From the IMG/VR virus record IMGVR_UViG_3300044655_000344, positions 1-22,251 of that record: a stretch of 22,251 bases of DNA. One strand, 5' to 3'. The notes below the pieces were generated by a model, which was not told where the DNA came from, did not search any database, and saw nothing but the letters and a program-made list of their open reading frames with translations. A program made the position numbers and the translations under genes. Source of the DNA: a virus. Shown here piece after piece: positions 597 to 13,037 of the stretch; positions within the stretch are counted from its first letter, which is position 1; every line of letters starts with the position of its first letter.

Positions 597-1187
597 TTAT
601 TCCTGTTTAATAAATGTAAATGTATGACCTTTATGAGATTTACATTTACCATTTGCGCATTGACTTACAGAACCAGTACTAAAACCATGTTCTTTTATTG
701 ATTTCTCACCAATTAAGGTATATGATTCACCTGTTGCAATATTGGTAACTAGTATTGGTTTAGATCTTGATTTACGAATGGCTTCTGCATTCGCCTCCCT
801 ACCTTCTACTGTTTGAACTCTATTACTAATAACCAATTTACCTTCATCAGTTTTCCAGTAATCAGACATCACATCACTATGTCTTTCTCGTTCACCTTCT
901 TTAGACCATCTTTTTATACATCCAGCCTTTACAAGTGGTTGTGCTTCTTTAATGTTATTTTCCATAGTATCAATTCTAACATTGTCTGCACTATATGGAC
1001 CTTCATCATTAAATCGGCACATGTTATACTGTCCTTTGTATATCCCACGTTGATCATATTTTCCTGATGATATCCATATATCTTTCCATTCTTCAAAAGT
1101 CAATTCCCAAGGGATATTTCTTTTGTTTTCAGCATTCCATTTTTGCGTGTAGAATTGTTTTTTCATTTTAGTATCTAAATCATTCAT
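597..1187 (-). CDS. Homing-endonuclease-like protein with C-terminal NUMOD1 repeat, 196 aa
   Basis: The N-terminal third holds the pattern W-x-L-x-F-x-EW...RG...Y-x-MCR at residues 27-58, followed by GPYSADNVRI and ENN, which I recognise from phage-encoded putative HNH-type endonucleases. The C-terminal 50 residues (PILVTNIATGESYTLIG... to the end) fit NUMOD1/IENR1, a DNA-binding repeat of intron-encoded nucleases. A complete His-Asn-His triad is not evident, so catalytic activity is uncertain and a degenerate or DNA-binding-only protein is possible. It is a basic, soluble-looking, non-structural protein sitting among fibre genes, as expected of a mobile gene. It has its own sigma70-type promoter and an AGGA seven bases before the ATG. 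An intron or intein partner is not seen. Confidence 0.7.
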   Translation of the reverse strand: MNDLDTKMKKQFYTQKWNAENKRNIPWELTFEEWKDIWISSGKYDQRGIYKGQYNMCRFNDEGPYSADNVRIDTMENNIKEAQPLVKAGCIKRWSKEGERERHSDVMSDYWKTDEGKLVISNRVQTVEGREANAEAIRKSRSKPILVTNIATGESYTLIGEKSIKEHGFSTGSVSQCANGKCKSHKGHTFTFIKQE

Positions 1188-1250: not shown

Positions 1251-2822
1251 TTAGCCAACCACGGACCAGCCTTTGGCTGTTGCTATTGATGGTGTATCCG
1301 TTGCAGTTCCCCAATTACCGGTTACTGTAATAGTTTTACCTGTTACAGTAGCCAAATTAGAATAGATGTTATTCAATTGAACACCTGACAATTGATTATT
1401 TGCAATTGTATGTGTCTGATTAATACCCGACCAATCAAGTTCTGTAAGATTAGCATAACTTGGTAATCCAACTGTTCCGGTATTACCAGATGTTGCTGAT
1501 GGAAATGTTTGACTAATAACGATTCTATTAACAGGTGCTTGTGAAATCGTAAATATACCAGACACTGCTGTTGCTGCCAAACCAGTCGTTTTGAATGTAC
1601 CAGTGAATGGATAATATATATCACCTACACCAAGACAGCCACTGAACATATTATTAAGGGTTACTGCAGAACTAATATTAATACCTGTATTAACAACTTT
1701 TGTTAATGCAACGCAACCATTGAAAGCATTTTGGAATGTGGTGACACTACTAGTATCACCTATCGGTGGTATTTCTGTCATATTTCTACAATCTTGCCAA
1801 GTACTTACCATTGATGTGCAGGTAGTGGTTATTGTCGAAAATGAAGGAGATTTTTCCAGCATATAACAACCCTGAAACATATTATTAACTGAGGTGCAGT
1901 TCGTGAAATCAAAAACGGCTTCACCTGTATCTTTTAGATTGATACAGTTTTGAAAAGGACTCACAACCTGACCAGATATCTTAAAATTCAACGGTGGTAG
2001 TGTGGTAATTGAATAGCAGTTTTGGAAAGTAGCATTAAATGTTATATTGTCAGGTATTACAAAATATGGGATCTCTTTTAATTTGTAACAATTTTGAAAT
2101 GTGGAAGTTATAGTTAATGTTGGTGATGATACCGATAAATTGAAATTTACCAAAGGAGGGATATATTCCAATTCAAAACAATCAGCGAAAGTGCTTATAT
2201 AATAGGTTGGTGTTGCATTGAATACTAATTGGGATGGTAATACCTGTAATGCATTACAACTTTGAAATCCTACATTTGATAATCTAAAATTAGAATTGAA
2301 TAATATTCGTTCTACCATTTTAAGTGCTGGCCCAGTACCACCAACGGTGATATTAGCACCACTATACGTGGTATTAGCAATGATATCGATATATTTTTTA
2401 GGTGAAACACCCTGTTGGTTTGTATGATTTGATATAACAAATGAAGTAAATGACGCACCACTTGTAACTGGAGTAATAGTGATCAGAGCAGTTTTATAAC
2501 CACGTGAAGTCACTGCCGATGATATGTTAGAAGGTTCATAAGTATGTTCTGCTTTTACACCAGAACCATATGTATTATTAGTACCATCACCCCAATCAAC
2601 GTAATAAGATCCAGTACTCATCAAACAGTTAAATGCAGCGAATTGACTACCAATATTTGTGTAATTTGAATCTGAAACCGCAAACAACAAGGCAATCTTA
2701 TTTTCATTTTCACCAATCGTTGGCATTGGTGTCCAATCACTTGGTCTTACCCAATTATGTCTGTTCTCGCTAATACCAGACTTACTCGTGATATTACTTT
2801 CTTTCAGTGTTTTGACTGACAT
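1251..2822 (-). CDS. PKD plus leucine-rich-repeat tail adhesin, 523 aa
   Basis: Probable receptor-binding or fibre-tip adhesin. After about 70 residues comes a PKD-like segment with YYVDWGDG at 73-80 and HTY at 93-95. Residues about 185-400 hold nine BspA-like leucine-rich repeats, each with an F/W-x-x-C core followed by L/I and IPP-like residues; the cysteines are at 189, 215, 245, 269, 293, 319, 345, 370 and 396, a period near 25. A C-terminal cap has TELDWSGI and ends TAKGWSVVG. No signal peptide is present, as expected for a virion protein. The start overlaps the stop of the previous gene as TAATG, with GAGGT upstream. BspA-like repeats mediate surface binding in other systems; attachment to the host is inferred. 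Whether it is on a fibre or elsewhere on the virion is unknown. Confidence 0.75.
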   Translation of the reverse strand: MSVKTLKESNITSKSGISENRHNWVRPSDWTPMPTIGENENKIALLFAVSDSNYTNIGSQFAAFNCLMSTGSYYVDWGDGTNNTYGSGVKAEHTYEPSNISSAVTSRGYKTALITITPVTSGASFTSFVISNHTNQQGVSPKKYIDIIANTTYSGANITVGGTGPALKMVERILFNSNFRLSNVGFQSCNALQVLPSQLVFNATPTYYISTFADCFELEYIPPLVNFNLSVSSPTLTITSTFQNCYKLKEIPYFVIPDNITFNATFQNCYSITTLPPLNFKISGQVVSPFQNCINLKDTGEAVFDFTNCTSVNNMFQGCYMLEKSPSFSTITTTCTSMVSTWQDCRNMTEIPPIGDTSSVTTFQNAFNGCVALTKVVNTGINISSAVTLNNMFSGCLGVGDIYYPFTGTFKTTGLAATAVSGIFTISQAPVNRIVISQTFPSATSGNTGTVGLPSYANLTELDWSGINQTHTIANNQLSGVQLNNIYSNLATVTGKTITVTGNWGTATDTPSIATAKGWSVVG

Positions 2823-4178: not shown

Positions 4179-4196
4179 AATTAGTTTAAACTAATT
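4179..4196. repeat. 18-base perfect palindrome over a stop codon
   Basis: AATTAGTTTAAACTAATT is a perfect palindrome that includes the last codons and the TAA stop of the 137-aa gene. Its function is unknown. Being AT-rich, it could be chance, but it adjoins the 4145-4172 hairpin. Confidence 0.5.
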
Positions 4197-4594
4197 GTAA
4201 TGTTGTTTGTTGAAACTTGGAAGGTATCATCGATGTCGATTGGTTTGGCAGTGGTTACTGCGCCCCAATATAAGACGTTACCTGAAGTTTGTGCATCCAT
4301 GATAGCAACATGAGAGATTGTACCCCATGAAGCAGTTGCTACTGGGAATGTGACGGTTGCTGAGTTAGCAGATGAACCGCCCGATGCTGCACCGAATGCA
4401 ATTGATTGACGTTGATAAGCAGTACCTGATGTACCGACTTCGTCAGTTAAAGTACCTGCTTCTAAGTTAGAAGCGGCATTTGTAGATGTATTAGTGAATA
4501 AACCCAAGTATAAAGCACTTGGTTGTGTAAAAGAAGCCACACGTAATGTATGGTCTAAGATTTTGTTTTCTAAGTAATTAGATGCTGCAGTCAT
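4181..4594 (-). CDS. Phage virion/tail-fibre family protein, 137 aa
   Basis: MTAASNYLENKILDHTLRVA, then LYLGLFTN, a central YQRQSIAFGAA, the motif VTFPVATASWGTISHVAI at about 81-98 and a C-terminal DDTFQVSTNNITISLN. This matches a widespread family of roughly 130-150-residue phage structural proteins, often annotated as tail-fibre or virion proteins. Its C-terminal half is related to that of the preceding 175-aa protein, so the two look like paralogues. The ATG has GGAGA five bases upstream. It is the first gene after a terminator and a late-promoter-like element, so it may head its own transcript and be made in different amounts from the genes before it. Confidence 0.75.
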   Translation of the reverse strand: MTAASNYLENKILDHTLRVASFTQPSALYLGLFTNTSTNAASNLEAGTLTDEVGTSGTAYQRQSIAFGAASGGSSANSATVTFPVATASWGTISHVAIMDAQTSGNVLYWGAVTTAKPIDIDDTFQVSTNNITISLN

Positions 4595-4680: not shown

Positions 4681-5208
4681 TTATACTACACGACTTGTTG
4701 TGTATAACTTCATGTTGTTCTCTGGGATAACGAGTTTATCACCAGCATAAATGTACTTTGGTGTATCGAATTTAACATAGAATAAAGCAGTATCATTGCT
4801 TTGAGCCCATGAGGGTTTACCAAACCATTTGGTAGCAAAACAAGCGTGCGTTATTTCACCCCAATCAGTTGTGGCAGTTGGGAATACGATTTCAGATGTA
4901 TTTGTAATTGCCCATCTGTCATTAGGTGGGTACAAACTAATATTAAATTTGTATTGGGCGATTTCCAATGGAATATAATCCGATGCAGTTATTTCAAACT
5001 GGGTTGGAATCTCTAACATCCATGGTTGATAACTCGCATTTGCTTCTATTCTAGTTGGATCAACGGTGATAATACTTTCTAATTCACCTTGTTGGTTATC
5101 ACGAAATAACCTTACTGATCTATGGGTTTGATCCCATGAATTAACGTTATTACTCAACATCAATTGTAGCATTACAAGTCTTGTTGAAAGTGGAATTCCT
5201 GTTATCAT
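4681..5208 (-). CDS. Virion protein, paralogue of the next gene, 175 aa
   Basis: MITGIPLSTRLVMLQLMLSN opens a 175-residue soluble protein. Its C-terminal half holds VFPTATTDWGEITHACF at about 108-124 and YAGDKLVIPENN near the end, which align with FPVATASWGTISH and DDTFQVSTNN in the 137-aa protein that follows. The N-terminal part is different and unrecognised. The ATG has AAGGAAA upstream, in the leader after the stop of the hub C-terminal gene, where CTAAAAGATAAGGA overlaps that stop. Most likely a tail-tip or fibre-base component; a terminator follows directly, so it ends a transcription unit. Confidence 0.7.
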   Translation of the reverse strand: MITGIPLSTRLVMLQLMLSNNVNSWDQTHRSVRLFRDNQQGELESIITVDPTRIEANASYQPWMLEIPTQFEITASDYIPLEIAQYKFNISLYPPNDRWAITNTSEIVFPTATTDWGEITHACFATKWFGKPSWAQSNDTALFYVKFDTPKYIYAGDKLVIPENNMKLYTTSRVV

Positions 5209-5220
5209 GTTTGTTTCCTT

Positions 5221-5229
5221 ATCTTTTAG
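5221..5229 (-). repeat. CTAAAAGAT boundary motif, copy 2
   Basis: Overlaps the TAA stop of the 615-aa gene and runs into the AAGGAAA ribosome-binding site of the 175-aa gene. Confidence 0.7.
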
Positions 5230-7073
5230 GTTGGCATTGTGGTAGTAAATGCGATATTACCATCAATGGTATTATAAGTTAGGTATGCGATTACATCACC
5301 TTCTATGTCTGAATTACCAGCAGTGTAGTAATTTGCTGTTACTGTTACAGCAGCAGATGACATAGTTTTAGTTTCAGTAGCAGTTGGATTTGAGAAACTA
5401 GTACCTGATTGAACTGGTGTACCACCTTTCCATAAGTAAGCATCGATCTTAACTGGATTGCCTGGACTGTAGAACGGTGAAGTTCCAGTTGTACCCCAAA
5501 CACCTTTCAATTCAATTACTATTTTAGTTTCATTTGGATAGGCTGCTTTAATAGCATCAAAGTTTACTAATACAACTTCAGATGTAGATCCAGTTGTATC
5601 ACCACCCCATGTTAAGAATGCATTACCAGTAGCAGGGAATCTTGATATTTGACCAGTACCTCGTTTACCAACAGGTATAGTTTGTGATGCATTTGGCAAA
5701 ATGATCTTAGCGCGTGCATCTAACAACAAACCATTTTGTCCTGGAACCCAAACCAATCCAGCCGTATTAGCAGCAAATACCGCACTTTGTTTATTGAAAT
5801 CATCTGGATTAACCGCAGTGAATACATTCCAGTTTACTGTGAAACTAGCAATGTTTGGATTTGCACCCTGTGCGTTGAATATTGCTAAGTTTTCTGGGCA
5901 ATATTCATTATATAAAAATAAGATAGTATACTCAGTATTCTCAACCAAATTACAAGTTGCTGATAAGGCAAAGTCAGTCCAACCATATGCACCAATACCA
6001 CCAGAACCTTCATTTACCAATACAGTATTATCACTGGCCTTTACTATTTGCATATACACTGAAATAAAATCACTGTTTTCTGTTATTACTGCATTTTGAC
6101 CATTAATCTTAGCAATGTATTCACCACGACCACCATAAGCCAAACTGCTGTTCTGATCTATAATTGATGAACACACATACGTTGCAGTATGTGGTGCAAT
6201 AAATGAAACATACATCATAAGTTTATTATCAGTTATAGAACTACAAGGTGGTAAGTTACTAGCGGTATACGAACCAGAAGATGCTATCATCATAGCACCT
6301 CCATTTTGTACTAGAGCACCACCAATTGCATTGGTAAGTGTAGAATCCGCAGCAAGCCCGTTTGAAACAGAAGTAGTTATGGCTTTATTATCTAACGCAG
6401 CCAGTACCGTATTGGCTGATTTTGGAATAATACCAGTTTTCTCATCACGTTTTGTATAGATAAGTCCACTTGTATTATAAACTGCTGAATCATATTCTAA
6501 CGCAGTAATACTAATACCAATCACATCAGTATCATCTTCTTGAATTGAAGTGATTCTAAACTTCTTAAAACTGTATCCATAAAGTGAGTTAGTAACTGTG
6601 ATAATATCACCGGCTTTTAAACCAATTGCTGTGTAATCAGTAGTGAACTTGATAAGAGTATCTAATCTACTTTGCTTTAACTCAACAGTTGCAATAAACT
6701 GTGCTTGAATTGGGTCATTGATAAGGTTAGTATCAATTAGTAGAGTGTTATCGATTTCATCAGCGTATCGATCTGCTACTGGAATCTCAACGTCTATTTG
6801 GTCAGTTTTATCACTTAAGTCCTTGTGTGGGTAAGTGACAGTACATTTGTTATAAAGATCAGTGATCCCAGTTGATGAGACTGAGATACCACCTATGATA
6901 TTTGTGTCATTGAAAGCAAATACAGTTGGTCCTGCTTGTTTGATGGTAAAAGACCATTTGCCAGCAGAGACATCATATGTTATCCATGCACCGCATGCGG
7001 TGAATAACTTTGTTAAGTTACTCATACATGATTGTCCAGTATCTACTGTTCCATTTATCGAAAAGTCGTACAT
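5226..7073 (-). CDS. Central tail hub, C-terminal part, 615 aa
   Basis: Residues 1-200 match the second half of gpJ-type phage tail hub proteins: SINGTVDTGQS at 5-15, the GAWITYDVSAGKWSF stretch at 28-42, FNDTNIIGGISVSSTGITDL at 54-73, YPHKDL, then NDPIQAQFIATVELKQSRLD at 119-138 and LKAGDIITVTNSLYGYSFKK. The protein begins just where the first half of a hub would join, with Met in place of the residue before YDFSING, and the first half is encoded separately by the 247-aa gene. Residues about 210-615 form a beta-rich extension with a tryptophan-containing, ligand-binding-like tail. The start has AGGA ten bases upstream in AAGGACTAAAAGATAATG. It likely sits at the tail tip, forming the hub with the 247-aa protein; assembly from two chains is inference. 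Confidence 0.75.
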   Translation of the reverse strand: MYDFSINGTVDTGQSCMSNLTKLFTACGAWITYDVSAGKWSFTIKQAGPTVFAFNDTNIIGGISVSSTGITDLYNKCTVTYPHKDLSDKTDQIDVEIPVADRYADEIDNTLLIDTNLINDPIQAQFIATVELKQSRLDTLIKFTTDYTAIGLKAGDIITVTNSLYGYSFKKFRITSIQEDDTDVIGISITALEYDSAVYNTSGLIYTKRDEKTGIIPKSANTVLAALDNKAITTSVSNGLAADSTLTNAIGGALVQNGGAMMIASSGSYTASNLPPCSSITDNKLMMYVSFIAPHTATYVCSSIIDQNSSLAYGGRGEYIAKINGQNAVITENSDFISVYMQIVKASDNTVLVNEGSGGIGAYGWTDFALSATCNLVENTEYTILFLYNEYCPENLAIFNAQGANPNIASFTVNWNVFTAVNPDDFNKQSAVFAANTAGLVWVPGQNGLLLDARAKIILPNASQTIPVGKRGTGQISRFPATGNAFLTWGGDTTGSTSEVVLVNFDAIKAAYPNETKIVIELKGVWGTTGTSPFYSPGNPVKIDAYLWKGGTPVQSGTSFSNPTATETKTMSSAAVTVTANYYTAGNSDIEGDVIAYLTYNTIDGNIAFTTTMPT

Positions 7074-7074
7074 T

Positions 7075-7083
7075 ATCTTTTAG
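7075..7083 (-). repeat. CTAAAAGAT boundary motif, copy 3
   Basis: Lies in the 13-base gap between the giant adhesin and the hub C-terminal gene, between AAGGA and the ATG, so it is part of the ribosome-binding region at the apparent insertion junction. Confidence 0.7.
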
Positions 7084-7086
7084 TCC

Positions 7087-10000
7087 TTATAATTTTAATT
7101 GATCAACATTTCGTTGGAATGTTGTACCACTTGGTGTTGTTATTTTGATAATTAATTCAAATGACTTTGCAAATGGCGTTATGTATATGACACCCAACAC
7201 GGCATTTATAGCATCTTTATAATTAGTAACTGACACTTGATCATTAACATCCGATACAATCAATGGTGTACCTACGACATAGTTAGGAACGTAGGTGTTA
7301 TTCACTGAAGTATATACATAAGTTGAAGAAACCACGTCGATAGTTTGATAGAAACTACGTATAGTATTAGTGTCATACCCAATTCCACTTGCAACAACAA
7401 AAGATATTGGCCATATGTAATTTGATCCGGTATTATCCCAAGATAGTGATGGGTAGGTTTCATTTGGTAAAATTTCTTCACGTATCAAGGTAGCAGTTGC
7501 ACCAGAGGTATTCAAAGTATAGAATCTTGAATTACTAGAGGTGCTAGTAATTGCATCATTTTTAAAATGACAAATTGAAAGATCTTGGTTAAAAGAAGAT
7601 TGATTATAGTATCCAGTAAGGGAATTTACAACCGTGTAAGTTAGAGTTTTACTTAATGACCAAATACTACCGCTATATGAATAAAATGCATATGTGTGGG
7701 GAGTGTTAGCAACTCTTGTACCCATCGCAACTACAAACTTTGTTCCAGTATCATCAAAAGTAATATTACCATTCCCAAGATTCGTGCTATCATAGGTATG
7801 TGATATGGACTGTGATAATACAAATTGACTACTGGTATTTGCTCTTGTGTAAACATAGAGATTTGAATTACTGGTAGTAACCATTATCAAACCATTATTC
7901 GAAAAAGCACCAGTCATTCCAAATCCACCAGATGCGGTTTGCTCAGTTATTACTTGTGATCCTATTTGAAGTCTTCCGTTTTCTACTGTCGATGCAAAGT
8001 CACCGCGCATGGCAACTAATGATGAAACGTCTTTACAAGTGAACATTCTTAGACCAAAGGAATCGTATTCGGTATTTTGAGAACCAATTACTGTGCTGCT
8101 CTGTGTCAAATTACCTGTACTTGTATCACGTGTATAAACATATACACGACCTGCCTTACTAATACCAGACACTGTTTCACCGATCGCACCAACATATATG
8201 ATATTTCCATCGTATGACGTTTTTACTGAAACACCATATATAGCCGCACCACATGTAATTGAACCCATTATACCAGTATCTAATTCTCTAACACTAACTA
8301 AACCATTTCCTCTATTAATTCTAACTAATATCTTACCATTAGGTGAAAGATAAGACTCTAAATAATAAGGCCAAATACCATTAATGTTAGTACTATTTGT
8401 TGTAGGACTTCCATACTGGAAAGTTGCAGTTGGTATGCTTAATGAATTTACTGCAGTGGTATCATTTGGGAATACAGATAATGTGTATTTTCCAGTTTCA
8501 GTTGCAGTTATAGTTGGGTTGGAATGACATGGATATGCAGTGTTTGCTGTGAATGATTGTGTACTTGATGCTAATGATAATACGGTAGTATTGATATTCA
8601 CCAAGTTGAATGAACGAGTTCCAGTTTCTGAATTAGAACTATTTGTTGCATTCCATGTAAATGATAAATCATAACCATAACCAGCAGTGGTTGTTATAGC
8701 CATATTAGAAATGTAGAAGTTAATACCACCAGCAGTTCCTACTACAGTTAATACTCCATTGGTTATAGATGATGTTACACCAGCAGTTGGTATAAAACCC
8801 ACATATGACATACCGCTATTAAGCATACTAGGAGTCAATGTTAATGTCCAAGTTGGATTGGTATTACCAGAATCAACGATTGAAGGTAATAATCCATTTG
8901 TGCTTAAAGTAATACTAGAACCAGCATTGTACGTATACGAACTTGTGATACTACTTAATGGATAAACATCAGTAATTGTCATATTTTGATTCCAAGCAAC
9001 GGTGCCTGATACATCACCAGTTGTCCAACTAACAACAGTTTGGATAGTAAAAGCGCCATTGTAGTAGTTGTTCAATGATGCTGTTGCTGTTGTTTTTACA
9101 GTATCCCATTCGGCTAATGAATTAATACCAGTTAATGTTATTACATTGCCATTAACAGTTTTTGTTACACCTGCTGATAAACCACTCCATGCAACATTCC
9201 AAGAAAAACTACTTGAATTAGTAACATTTATTGGTTGGATAACAACAGTAACATTAGTACCTGAATTCAACTGAGTTGGATTTGATAACCAATCCAAAGT
9301 AAATGAACTACCTTCTGTTTTAGTATATGAGGTATAACTTCCAGATGGAACTGACGCTGGACTGAATATAACATCAATTGGTCTAGTAGAACCAGTTGCA
9401 GATACTTGTTGAACACCACCTTTGGTTTGTGTATAGGTAAAGTTATCAGTTGTTGTAGAGGCAGTCAAGTAGATTAGGGTTGGGAATAGTGCATTTATCT
9501 GATCTTTGGTACCTGTATAACTGTAATTGGTAACTGCATTACCAGCAGTTGTTCCAAATTTACCAGTAGTACTTACTAAAGTAATAGTAAAAGATGGGTT
9601 AGTACTATCTAGGTCAGTAATCTGTGGTGTGTTTGAAGCAAATATTGAACTAGCAACATTAGGCGTGTATACACGACTTAGCGTAATATTAGAAGATACT
9701 TCACTATGAATACCAATATTAGAATAAGTGATTACTGCACTTCGTACTTTAGCAGCAGGTGTAGTTACTTGACAAGTCAATGTAAAACTACTTGTATAAT
9801 CAGAACCTGGGACTAGGGTTATTGTAGATAATCTATTATTGATCTGTGATCTAGTTCCAACGAGAGTTGTAACACCATTACTATAACTGAAAGTTCCACC
9901 AACACCAGTGGATGTTGCATTGCGAATGGCAGTTAGTGCTGCAGCCGTTAATGTGTATGTGTAATTACTTGGTGACACTGATGTACTTGAATCTGTGATA

Positions 10001-12297
10001 ACACTCCCATTATATCCATCACCATGAAGAAGTAAATTGGTATAATTATCGGCAGTAAACGCAATAGTAGGTACTGTGAAATTATTGATATATCTACATG
10101 TTTTAGATATACGAACTTCATCCATGTAAGATTTAGCAAAATTTGAATTGTAAGCACCCAATTGAAGTGGTATACTAGCAAATCTAGGTGTACCAGTTAC
10201 TGTATGACTTGCTTCAGCAACACCATTTACGAATAACGTTATTGTATTTGATTTCTTTTGGAAGGTAACTGCTATGTGATGCCAATCTGACAATGATAAA
10301 ACGGTAGTACCAACAATATGACGTTCTGCACCATCAAAATAAAAGAAATGTCCTTTGTGTGCCGAATCAATACCAAATGACCAGTAATTATCAATACCTG
10401 TCGATTCCATTAATCCTACATTCAATGGGAAATTACCAGTTACAGAATTGCCTCTAATAAATGATTCTACTGTATAATCGGTATTATACCATACCCAATC
10501 TTCTGATGCATTGACTGATAAATTACCATTTGTGAAAGCAAGAGATCCAGCACCAAACTTTGGAAATGTGGTTTTAATTGAGGCAGTTTGACCAAGATCA
10601 TATGATGTCGCTGCTTCTAATTGAACTAATGTAGTGGTGTTTCCATCGACCAATAAATGACTAGCAGTTGATGGTGCTGTAAATGACGTTCCAGAATAAC
10701 GAGCAATATCAGAAAATCTAACATCAGAAATTCTTATTGACTCATTGATAGCATAATTAACACCAATCATCGAATAGGCTGTTATGGTATAACCAACAGT
10801 CAAGTTTTGATTATTACTAAATCCAATATATCCAGTTTCTATTTGTGAACTTAGTAATACACGAGTACCATTAATGTATATTGCATACGTACATGCTTTG
10901 ACATCATTTGGGTTAGTATTAGTTCTAACAATTGCAATATGATTCCAAGCATTAAATGTCATACTACCACTACTATTATTGATATATGATCCCTGTGTAT
11001 GGAAATGAAAACTATTTACACCTGGGTCATATCGTAAAGACCATTCATTTCCAGTAGTACCATACTTATTTTCTAAACCAGTATATTGTGATTTTGATAG
11101 AATTGGAAATGAAGTCATCGAACTCATACCACTGGCTGCATAAAGAAAGAACTCAATTGTGAAATTCGGTGTAGTTATATCACCAATTGTGGAATTTTCT
11201 GCAATAGTTCGTCTGTCTACTGAACCACTCATATTATTGCCGTTGTAATATACTTCAGTTGCCTTATCATATGCATTAGTTGGTATTCTTCCAGAATTTA
11301 CAATTGTAGTACCAGAACTACTCATGGAATGCATACTAGAATTTATAGATAATGTTTTAGGCGTATTACCTTCAGAGGCTGTTGACTCGTTATCAGTGAT
11401 TTGTGGTAAACCAGAGAGTACAAATGGGACATCCTCGCTGTAAGAGCCAGTTTGTGTGAACAATCCAAGATATCTAACAGTTTCGCATATTAGATTTTGA
11501 GTTACAGTTTGATTTTTAGTCGCAGTTGCATTGATTGCGTAGTAAGTTAAAACAAACGAACTAGTATTTGTCGATGAAAATGTAAAATACATTGAATTCA
11601 GGTGACTATTTACTTGTGTTTTAGTACCTGATATTGTGATAACTCTAGTAGTTGGATTTATAGATACCGTTCCACCGCTTCCAACGGTACTAACGGCTGT
11701 TATTCCAGTGGCTGAATTTGGTGTAACAGTCACTGTCCAATTTGGCTGTTGTACTGAATAATCATAAACTACTGGATTACCAGTTATCTTTTGGGCCACT
11801 CCATTTTCAAAAGAAAAATCATAAGCAGCACTTAGTACATCATACTGTAAAATAGTAGTTGATACATTCCATGATACGTAATTTGTAGTTTGGTATTCGA
11901 TAGTAGCCATGTATGAGAAACTACCATACACTTCTTCATTAATGATGATGGTTGGACTTTTAATCAAGTTCCAAGTAACTGCTGAATTAATACCACTTAT
12001 TTTCCATACATTATGTGTTGGATTTGTTACAACACATCCACTCGGTATAGTTGCCCATTGAACTTGACAATCTAAAAGAGTATTGCGTAAATCAATGATA
12101 TAACAAGCACCAATAAATGGATAATTGATAATCTCAGTAATATTAGAACCAACTGGTAGGCTATGTGGTGCACCTTGGTAAATCGTTAATGATTGAGTTG
12201 CTGGTGTTAATGTACTGAATGTGATGCTAGGTGTTCTTTGATCGATGTAATCATTGGTATCCAAACCAATGCCATTTAAATCTGTTATGCTCTTCAT
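7087..12297 (-). CDS. Giant multidomain tail adhesin, 1736 aa
   Basis: A very large beta-rich protein beginning MKSITDLNGIGLDTNDYIDQ. Two LamG/concanavalin-like domains lie near residues 375-540 (FTIEFFLY...WNHIAIVR...IYINGTRV) and 605-740 (YTVESFIR...WHHIAVTFQ...LFVNGVAEASH...MDEVRIS). About five Ig/cadherin-like units carry G-T-[KR]-x-Q-[IV]-N: near residues 226 (GTKTQVNSHL), 812 (GTRSQINNRL), 929 (GTKDQINALF) and 1189 (GTAGGINFYI), with a diverged unit near 1062; several contain ITDxDS. Residues about 1310-1620 look propeller-like (SPNGKILVRI, RVYVYTRD, FDDTGTKFVVAM). The ATG at 12297 is preferred: it makes an ATGA overlap with the 247-aa gene and has AGGAG 11 bases upstream; the frame stays open 11 codons further but with no better start. 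Probably a carbohydrate-binding adhesin at the tail tip. It separates two halves of the hub. Confidence 0.75.
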   Translation of the reverse strand: MKSITDLNGIGLDTNDYIDQRTPSITFSTLTPATQSLTIYQGAPHSLPVGSNITEIINYPFIGACYIIDLRNTLLDCQVQWATIPSGCVVTNPTHNVWKISGINSAVTWNLIKSPTIIINEEVYGSFSYMATIEYQTTNYVSWNVSTTILQYDVLSAAYDFSFENGVAQKITGNPVVYDYSVQQPNWTVTVTPNSATGITAVSTVGSGGTVSINPTTRVITISGTKTQVNSHLNSMYFTFSSTNTSSFVLTYYAINATATKNQTVTQNLICETVRYLGLFTQTGSYSEDVPFVLSGLPQITDNESTASEGNTPKTLSINSSMHSMSSSGTTIVNSGRIPTNAYDKATEVYYNGNNMSGSVDRRTIAENSTIGDITTPNFTIEFFLYAASGMSSMTSFPILSKSQYTGLENKYGTTGNEWSLRYDPGVNSFHFHTQGSYINNSSGSMTFNAWNHIAIVRTNTNPNDVKACTYAIYINGTRVLLSSQIETGYIGFSNNQNLTVGYTITAYSMIGVNYAINESIRISDVRFSDIARYSGTSFTAPSTASHLLVDGNTTTLVQLEAATSYDLGQTASIKTTFPKFGAGSLAFTNGNLSVNASEDWVWYNTDYTVESFIRGNSVTGNFPLNVGLMESTGIDNYWSFGIDSAHKGHFFYFDGAERHIVGTTVLSLSDWHHIAVTFQKKSNTITLFVNGVAEASHTVTGTPRFASIPLQLGAYNSNFAKSYMDEVRISKTCRYINNFTVPTIAFTADNYTNLLLHGDGYNGSVITDSSTSVSPSNYTYTLTAAALTAIRNATSTGVGGTFSYSNGVTTLVGTRSQINNRLSTITLVPGSDYTSSFTLTCQVTTPAAKVRSAVITYSNIGIHSEVSSNITLSRVYTPNVASSIFASNTPQITDLDSTNPSFTITLVSTTGKFGTTAGNAVTNYSYTGTKDQINALFPTLIYLTASTTTDNFTYTQTKGGVQQVSATGSTRPIDVIFSPASVPSGSYTSYTKTEGSSFTLDWLSNPTQLNSGTNVTVVIQPINVTNSSSFSWNVAWSGLSAGVTKTVNGNVITLTGINSLAEWDTVKTTATASLNNYYNGAFTIQTVVSWTTGDVSGTVAWNQNMTITDVYPLSSITSSYTYNAGSSITLSTNGLLPSIVDSGNTNPTWTLTLTPSMLNSGMSYVGFIPTAGVTSSITNGVLTVVGTAGGINFYISNMAITTTAGYGYDLSFTWNATNSSNSETGTRSFNLVNINTTVLSLASSTQSFTANTAYPCHSNPTITATETGKYTLSVFPNDTTAVNSLSIPTATFQYGSPTTNSTNINGIWPYYLESYLSPNGKILVRINRGNGLVSVRELDTGIMGSITCGAAIYGVSVKTSYDGNIIYVGAIGETVSGISKAGRVYVYTRDTSTGNLTQSSTVIGSQNTEYDSFGLRMFTCKDVSSLVAMRGDFASTVENGRLQIGSQVITEQTASGGFGMTGAFSNNGLIMVTTSNSNLYVYTRANTSSQFVLSQSISHTYDSTNLGNGNITFDDTGTKFVVAMGTRVANTPHTYAFYSYSGSIWSLSKTLTYTVVNSLTGYYNQSSFNQDLSICHFKNDAITSTSSNSRFYTLNTSGATATLIREEILPNETYPSLSWDNTGSNYIWPISFVVASGIGYDTNTIRSFYQTIDVVSSTYVYTSVNNTYVPNYVVGTPLIVSDVNDQVSVTNYKDAINAVLGVIYITPFAKSFELIIKITTPSGTTFQRNVDQLKL

Positions 12298-13037
12298 ACT
12301 TGGTAAATCTCCTGTTCTGCGATCCCGCATCCGTATCTTGTGTTGGTCATGTAGTCGTATACCACATCACCGGCTTTACTTAATGTATTGTGTACTTTGA
12401 ATTTGACATTACCTAATCCAGTAACTGACTTAGTACTATTGTATTTAACCTTTACTAGACAAAAACACAGATCAGACATCTTATGGTTGATAGTCCACTT
12501 TGGCATAACTTCCCATGCATTTCTTTTAGTGCCGTTTACATTACTTGGGAATACCTGATTGGCTGCTTCACTACCACCACAATAACAATAGAATTCGATT
12601 AAATCTGCAATATCAGTTGAAGTATTACCATTTGCATCAGTAAAACTGGCAGCAGTAATACCATTACTTTTAAAATTAATTGTGTTTTCATTCCAATAGA
12701 CTCGTTCTATATCCAGTTGACTATCTGCACCAGTGCTGTATAATTTACCAGTAGATTCACAAATAGCCAAACAATACCACATTGTCATACTATCATCTGC
12801 TAAGACTGCATCACAAACAATACCAGCAGTAACAGTAGTTCCATAAACAACTGGGATGTGATGTGTAGTATCTGGATCTACTTGCTCACGAGTACCTTTC
12901 TTATTAACTGGTTTATCGTCCGGTTGTAATTGACTTAATAAGTAACCTAAACCTGCGATCTTTGCTGCTGAGATAGCATTATCCATATTGAATACACTAC
13001 CAAGCATACCTCCTACATCTTCTAAAAAACTTGACAT
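12294..13037 (-). CDS. Central tail hub, N-terminal part, 247 aa
   Basis: Matches the first part of gpJ-type tail hub proteins: IPVVYG at 61-66 followed by AGI, WYCLAICES at about 87-95, then LCFCLVKVKYN, VTGLGNVKFKV, and the diagnostic DVVYDYMTNTRYGCGI close to the C-terminus (about 224-239). Normal hub proteins continue for several hundred residues beyond this motif; here the chain ends eight residues later with EQEIYQV. The continuation is found 5.2 kb downstream in the 615-aa gene. The start has AGGAAG upstream. The stop overlaps the ATG of the giant adhesin as ATGA. It is probably a half of a two-chain hub at the tail tip, or a truncated one. Confidence 0.75.
   Translation of the reverse strand: MSSFLEDVGGMLGSVFNMDNAISAAKIAGLGYLLSQLQPDDKPVNKKGTREQVDPDTTHHIPVVYGTTVTAGIVCDAVLADDSMTMWYCLAICESTGKLYSTGADSQLDIERVYWNENTINFKSNGITAASFTDANGNTSTDIADLIEFYCYCGGSEAANQVFPSNVNGTKRNAWEVMPKWTINHKMSDLCFCLVKVKYNSTKSVTGLGNVKFKVHNTLSKAGDVVYDYMTNTRYGCGIAEQEIYQV

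Follow-up and report, generated by a model that had tools for sequence, protein, structure and literature searches.

A tail hub gene opened at one point in a phage lineage, with a probable receptor-binding protein gene between its halves

The window, meaning the whole stretch of DNA analyzed here, is an IMG/VR virus record of 22,251 bases whose main genes lie on the minus strand. In their reading direction, capsid-type and tail genes come first, followed by a tape measure gene, genes for a 126-aa protein and a 220-aa gpL-like protein, three genes for proteins of 247, 1736, and 615 aa, and small fibre-like genes (Table 1). Tape measure, small tail proteins, gpL-like protein, and hub is the order expected around a gpJ/pb3-type hub, and it is the order of the window. 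The gpL-like protein matches phrog_2048 (tail; E 1e-19), and PF09931 only at E 0.019. A first-pass annotation, made from the sequence alone, had read the 247-aa and 615-aa proteins as the first and second halves of one hub, with a LamG and Ig-like adhesin between them in a separate frame. We confirm this layout: all three ORFs lie on the minus strand where they were placed, the first reaches its stop codon eight residues past the motif YGCGI, and the third resumes after the linker that joins the halves in unsplit homologues. The middle ORF is counted from the ATG at 12297; a 1747-aa ORF from 12330 is a mechanical call only.

Table 1. Features of the split hub locus, in window coordinates.
Feature	Coordinates	Strand	Basis or remark
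N half of gpJ/pb3-type hub, 247 aa	12294..13037	-	aligns with P19250A J residues 1-249; ends ...MTNTRYGCGIAEQEIYQV
Middle gene, 1736-aa adhesin	7087..12297	-	own ATG overlaps N-half stop (ATGA)
C half of hub with variable C-terminal part, 615 aa	5226..7073	-	aligns with P19250A J residues 274-479
Hub portion of 615-aa protein	6468..7073	-	first 200 residues match hub profile
Captured hub linker, middle-protein residues 1-22, MKSITDLNGIGLDTNDYIDQRT	12232..12297	-	profile test; M..L..LN start
Conserved Ig-like anchor, middle-protein residues 23-150	11848..12231	-	alignment of 24 middle genes
Best LamG/ConA-like lectin domain of middle protein	10099..10497	-	PF13385, residues 612-744 of 1747-aa frame
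GGAG, Shine-Dalgarno-like, for middle gene, within N-half coding sequence	12309..12312	-	
AAGGA over middle stop codon, Shine-Dalgarno-like, for C half	7084..7088	-	
gpL-like tail protein (HDI / hub attachment), 220 aa	13047..13709	-	immediately upstream of split hub
Tape measure, 1252 aa, PF20155	14101-17859	-	

Further along the minus strand, the Gp80 podophage-fibre domain (PF23140) occurs in two neighboring genes (4181-4594 and 4681-5208; E 5e-39 and 2e-7). The N-terminal part of the second is different, and the pair looks like a small tail-fibre gene that was duplicated and then diverged. At the end of the tail cluster, a 523-aa protein with DUF285-like repeats (1251-2822, minus strand; E 1e-4, below the cut-off) is a candidate surface-binding protein. 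A 196-aa protein encoded after the tail genes (597-1187, minus strand) has a weak I-HmuI NUMOD-like match (E 6e-4, below the cut-off) and is perhaps, judging from this match, a free-standing homing endonuclease.

The 247-aa and 615-aa proteins belong to the same family. In tblastn, they match (E 1e-20 and 2e-14) adjacent parts of a single hub protein, J of Methylophilaceae phage P19250A, which is annotated as a host specificity protein and carries both halves in one continuous ORF. Aligned with this unsplit homologue, a check that the first-pass annotation had proposed, the halves fall on neighboring parts of it. Single-chain homologues that align with both halves comprise P19250A J and dozens of IMG/VR contigs, and their halves are joined by a linker, mostly of 22-36 aa (e.g., SLTALNTYSNQTITYTLYSGGTST). 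Profiles of 41 unsplit cores and of 19 N halves match T5 pb3, the first over residues 264-723 (E 2e-26) and the second, weakly, over residues 255-480 (E 0.0017). The hub fold was compared in an unsplit relative (L045): residues 1-496 were modeled (pLDDT 79.7), and the model matches the hubs T5 pb3 (E 2.9e-22), DT57C, and lambda gpJ (8e-19), with Z of 20.8-22.1. The 247-aa protein has no match in Pfam or PHROG, and the 615-aa protein reaches 21.0 bits against PF13550 (Phage-tail_3), for which the curated cut-off is 23. These results would fit two unrelated tail proteins with a superficial likeness to hubs. However, both match adjacent parts of one protein, and the unsplit-relative profile matches T5 pb3, which makes an unrelated origin extremely improbable.

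By profile alignment, the cut corresponds to about residues 300-325 of lambda gpJ, ahead of the PF13550 part (lambda 330-498). In a published description of the hub, HDIII replaces a loop of HDIV (PMC11101478), and from this description and the order of the strands we place the cut, by inference, at the HDIV-to-HDIII crossing. HDII-HDIV are a single chain in the cited solved examples, whereas they are cut in the window and in 80-odd relatives. The hub of the window is thus a split relative of gpJ rather than a standard one.

Relatives of the window were gathered as about 170 loci among the matches listed, and each was classed by whether both hub halves share one ORF. These loci were picked by their likeness to the window and include some near-duplicates, and their counts are therefore not frequencies in nature. 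Among the matches listed, 81 hubs are unsplit; the unsplit relatives that had been sought thus exist, and the relatives are hubs. At another 81 listed loci, the hub is cut and a linker-led gene follows, with both halves seen at 59 and with an N half, a linker-led gene, and no C half seen at 22. Five listed loci have a cut hub and no adhesin between; in such two-gene loci, for example, L147 (MNSLTELNNYSALSVAYDDQGTGAQTLADRYQING), the linker runs directly into the C half. The first-pass annotation had known of no phage with exactly this layout. We likewise found none described, but the layout is not unique to the window, since 80-odd contigs share it within a single lineage.

Like the window, every split case comes from metagenomic sequence, and an assembly or indel artefact might in principle have broken one long hub-adhesin gene. 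Against this, a second contig (L002) has a 247/1642/614 layout like that of the window, with an N half 89% and a C hub 86% identical, and so an indel error in a single assembly does not account for the split. Furthermore, the same cut recurs across many samples, in 80-odd contigs whose start signals are conserved. The relatives rule out sequencing error as the origin of the split, and an artefact of any such kind has practically no chance of being the explanation.

Hub-core trees group the split loci into a single lineage (support 97/82), which also holds the five two-gene loci and three unsplit hubs. A single clade of the three-gene rows is not rejected (p-AU 0.12), whereas placing every split row in one clade is (p 0.003). 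The two-gene loci may be intermediates, or they may have lost the adhesin. Unsplit hubs within the split lineage (L137, L146, and L171) stand beside two-gene loci and have possibly been re-fused after adhesin loss. A prophage search for a host in a species-genome collection returned no split hub and three unsplit ones in MAG contigs (L102-L104). The gene is also unsplit in the cultured phages P19250A, HTVC202P, HTVC111P, and Kolga, and no isolate with a split was found.

The two junctions carry signals of their own. In the window, the stop of the 247-aa gene and the start of the 1736-aa gene overlap in GTATGA, with GGAG 11 bases upstream; the 1736-aa gene ends in TAAGGA, and the next ATG lies 13 bases past the stop codon. 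Such overlaps and Shine-Dalgarno-like sites are the ordinary signals of three separately translated genes. Across the 86 listed loci, the second start lies at -5, -1, +2, +6, +7, or +19 from the N-half stop, in relative frames 2, 1, and 0 at 72, 12, and 2 loci, respectively, and a Shine-Dalgarno-like site precedes the second gene in 83/86. At the middle-to-C junction, such a site is found at 50 of 56 loci, and the stop is fused to GGA or AGG at 42 of them. The commonest first junction, a 4-base ATGA overlap in the -1 frame (65/86 loci), is a point in favor of programmed frameshifting or stop readthrough that would fuse the N half with the middle protein, or all three chains. Frameshifting cannot, however, explain a junction that occurs in all three relative frames, and the frequent Shine-Dalgarno-like sites and the stop and separate start at the middle-to-C junction also argue against a fusion, which we consider very unlikely.

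Insertion of an intron, intein, or homing endonuclease was rejected as the source of the middle gene: an Rfam search of the window found no intron or other RNA family, and the middle proteins have adhesin-type and sub-threshold Pfam hits only.

The lineage does not appear to keep an intact hub elsewhere in its genomes. When an unsplit hub was used to search 16 whole records, just one of which (L152) appears complete, no unsplit copy emerged, only the two halves (N half alone in L124), in line with the first-pass reading. The L152 record (G012) has 28,389 bases with identical 123-base ends, a split hub, and no further hub copy; its middle gene lies at the record start and is complete at 672 aa. 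Given the identical ends and the complete middle gene, this is probably a complete genome that lacks any other hub. The ends also suggest a circular genome of ~28.3 kb, a good reference for this uncultured lineage.

The middle protein begins with hub sequence. Its N-terminal ~20-22 residues correspond to the segment that joins the halves in unsplit hubs, which bears out the earlier suspicion that the adhesin had captured this linker. A profile built from the linkers of 31 unsplit hubs alone scored a mean of 9.2 at the starts of 65 middle proteins, compared with -23.4 (sd 7.2) at 43,864 other positions within these proteins. The protein start was the top-scoring position in 48/65 proteins (chance of ~1 in 670 each). 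A few members (L042) match the linker weakly and over a short stretch. Among the matches listed, all 86 second genes begin M..L..LN, and the linker is kept in 86/86 while the N halves have diverged to ~35% identity. In the model of the unsplit L045 hub, the linker is an ordered helix (262-272) and strand (275-278). When the middle protein is folded alone (AlphaFold), order is poor over residues 1-20, and residues 21-150, which form Ig domains, have pLDDT mostly of 86-95. A linker predicted to be disordered alone, next to confident Ig domains, is as would be expected for a docking peptide.

Behind the linker, the Ig-like anchor is conserved throughout the family, and the anchors of the two deep split clades are homologous (hhalign P 1e-7), which argues for a single origin of the linker-plus-anchor module. 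The distal parts are far more varied. Complete middle proteins have 543-1736 aa (median 743), the window's being the longest, and it contains a lectin-like domain, Laminin_G_3 (PF13385, E 1.7e-19), in two stretches. Pfam searches gave LamG ends in the window and L002, BNR-like and FG-GAP repeats in L028 (L025 and L030 below cut-off), a fibronectin III end in L041, and glycine-rich ends in L024, L034, L041, and L042 (L026 below cut-off). Comparisons of closely related pairs reveal swapped distal parts. L158 and L162 have N halves that are 96% identical, anchors 85%, distal parts 25-28%, and C hubs, over the part compared, 94%. Between the window and L002, the N half is 89% identical, the anchor 57%, the parts beyond it 46 and then 26%, and the C hub 86%. 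Distal parts that diverge while the hub halves stay alike are a pattern of receptor-binding proteins. From its domains and this distal variability, the middle protein is probably one of these.

The two contigs also differ elsewhere. Past the hub, the 615-aa protein (5226-6467, minus strand; a match to phrog_24956, of unknown function) is 36% identical to that of L002, compared with 86% in the hub part, and this fast-changing stretch may be a second variable module of the tip. Compared by eye, the tape measures of the window and of L002 (4455-8231) differ strongly in their first parts and are near-identical in their last few hundred residues, which suggests mosaic exchange.

We propose, with a probability of roughly 0.77 and on the basis of sequence comparison and structure models, that the hub is built from separate chains and that the receptor-binding protein is docked on it via the hub's own linker peptide. 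The first gene would supply the N-terminal hub part, the third gene the C-terminal hub part together with a distal extension of its own, and the middle gene a receptor-binding protein made of the hub linker (~20 residues), the Ig-like anchor, and exchangeable binding modules. The three would be translated separately via overlapping or closely spaced start and stop signals. The chains would then fold together, with the adhesin linker occupying its single-chain position (helix and strand) and tethering the adhesin, and each hub protomer would display one adhesin. Cutting the chain would release the adhesin's far end, which would have to come back to the loop if the hub were a single chain. It would also let the binding gene be exchanged whole, through recombination inside a single gene. 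The first-pass annotation had envisaged a hub of two chains; because the linker sits on the adhesin chain, it would be three here, in addition to the separate gpL-like protein.

The linker might instead be a fossil of the break, with the adhesin in the gap attached to the virion through its Ig anchor or at some other point, while the hub halves close linker-free. In keeping with this, the anchor is conserved as well, and the linker leads the C half in the five two-gene relatives, where a break ahead of the linker would leave it as a natural byproduct. However, retention of a motif in 86/86 genes over deep divergence would not be expected of neutral remnants, and the linker is an ordered helix-strand element in unsplit hubs. 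We therefore regard a fossil linker as unlikely, and a docked linker as the better account.

A docked linker might also do more than tether. The adhesin could complete the hub in trans, its linker being a needed tube-closing element that receptor binding pulls out, opening the tail; we offer this tentatively, as a possibility that we do not favor. In T5, the hdIV-FNIII linker is pulled like a zip (PMC10038345). By analogy, and more speculatively, pulling on the linker could help to open the hub.

Several known systems resemble parts of this arrangement. Lambda L, I, and J correspond to T5 pb3, as do the GTA hub and megatron (PMC10721106, PMC10038345). In lambda gpL/gpI/gpJ, the domains of the one-chain T5 hub are spread over separate genes, with the tip gene I (also K) in the gap (PMC10721106). 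However, the lambda break lies between HDI and the rest, upstream of gpJ, whereas here gpJ itself is cut and the gap gene encodes a probable receptor-binding protein that begins with hub sequence. The lambda break site has been called a focus of hypervariability in a study of the siphoviral hubs of Alishewanella phage LSH1 and Salmonella phage Jersey, to which new receptor-binding parts are attached at different points; unlike the window, these hubs are described there without a break within HDII-HDIV or an adhesin gene that bears a linker (PMC13243795).

The hubs of RcGTA and roseophage R4C are also split over two proteins (PMC7296036, PMC10276861). Their megatron has a large TIM-barrel/mannanase-like peripheral domain between an adhesin-like part and the central PF13550 part, seemingly in the same crossing of the hub chain, although comparing the R4C insert with the hub profile gave no usable alignment. 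This insert is enzyme-like and sits in one continuous chain, whereas the window has a separate lectin/Ig-like gene and a chain broken on both sides. The nearest cultured relative, P19250A J (APC43904), shares the tail-gene neighborhood, and the halves are 28% and 32% identical to it, but it is a single 1100-aa chain with a ~24-residue linker and no adhesin in that linker. Another conserved phage gene in separately translated parts is nrdD, interrupted by a homing endonuclease gene (PMC4837284); the insert in the window differs in being a structural binding protein that starts with hub sequence, without intron RNA. The open-licence papers searched, which are weak evidence on this point, describe no cut at this site and no hub peptide leading a receptor-binding gene. 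Split hubs were already known from lambda and GTA, but the cut site reported here was not found described.

Tail hubs close the tail and relay the receptor signal to DNA release, and they are usually viewed as a conserved core with binding parts on its ends. Here, a whole lineage has opened the core hub gene at one fixed point, with a probable host-recognition gene placed there and a hub peptide kept as an adapter. If the linker docks, this would be a natural plug-in socket for exchangeable receptor-binding proteins, and the receptor-binding proteins of uncultured phages could be found by reading the gene between the hub halves. It would also provide a direct, testable link from receptor binding to the opening of the tail.
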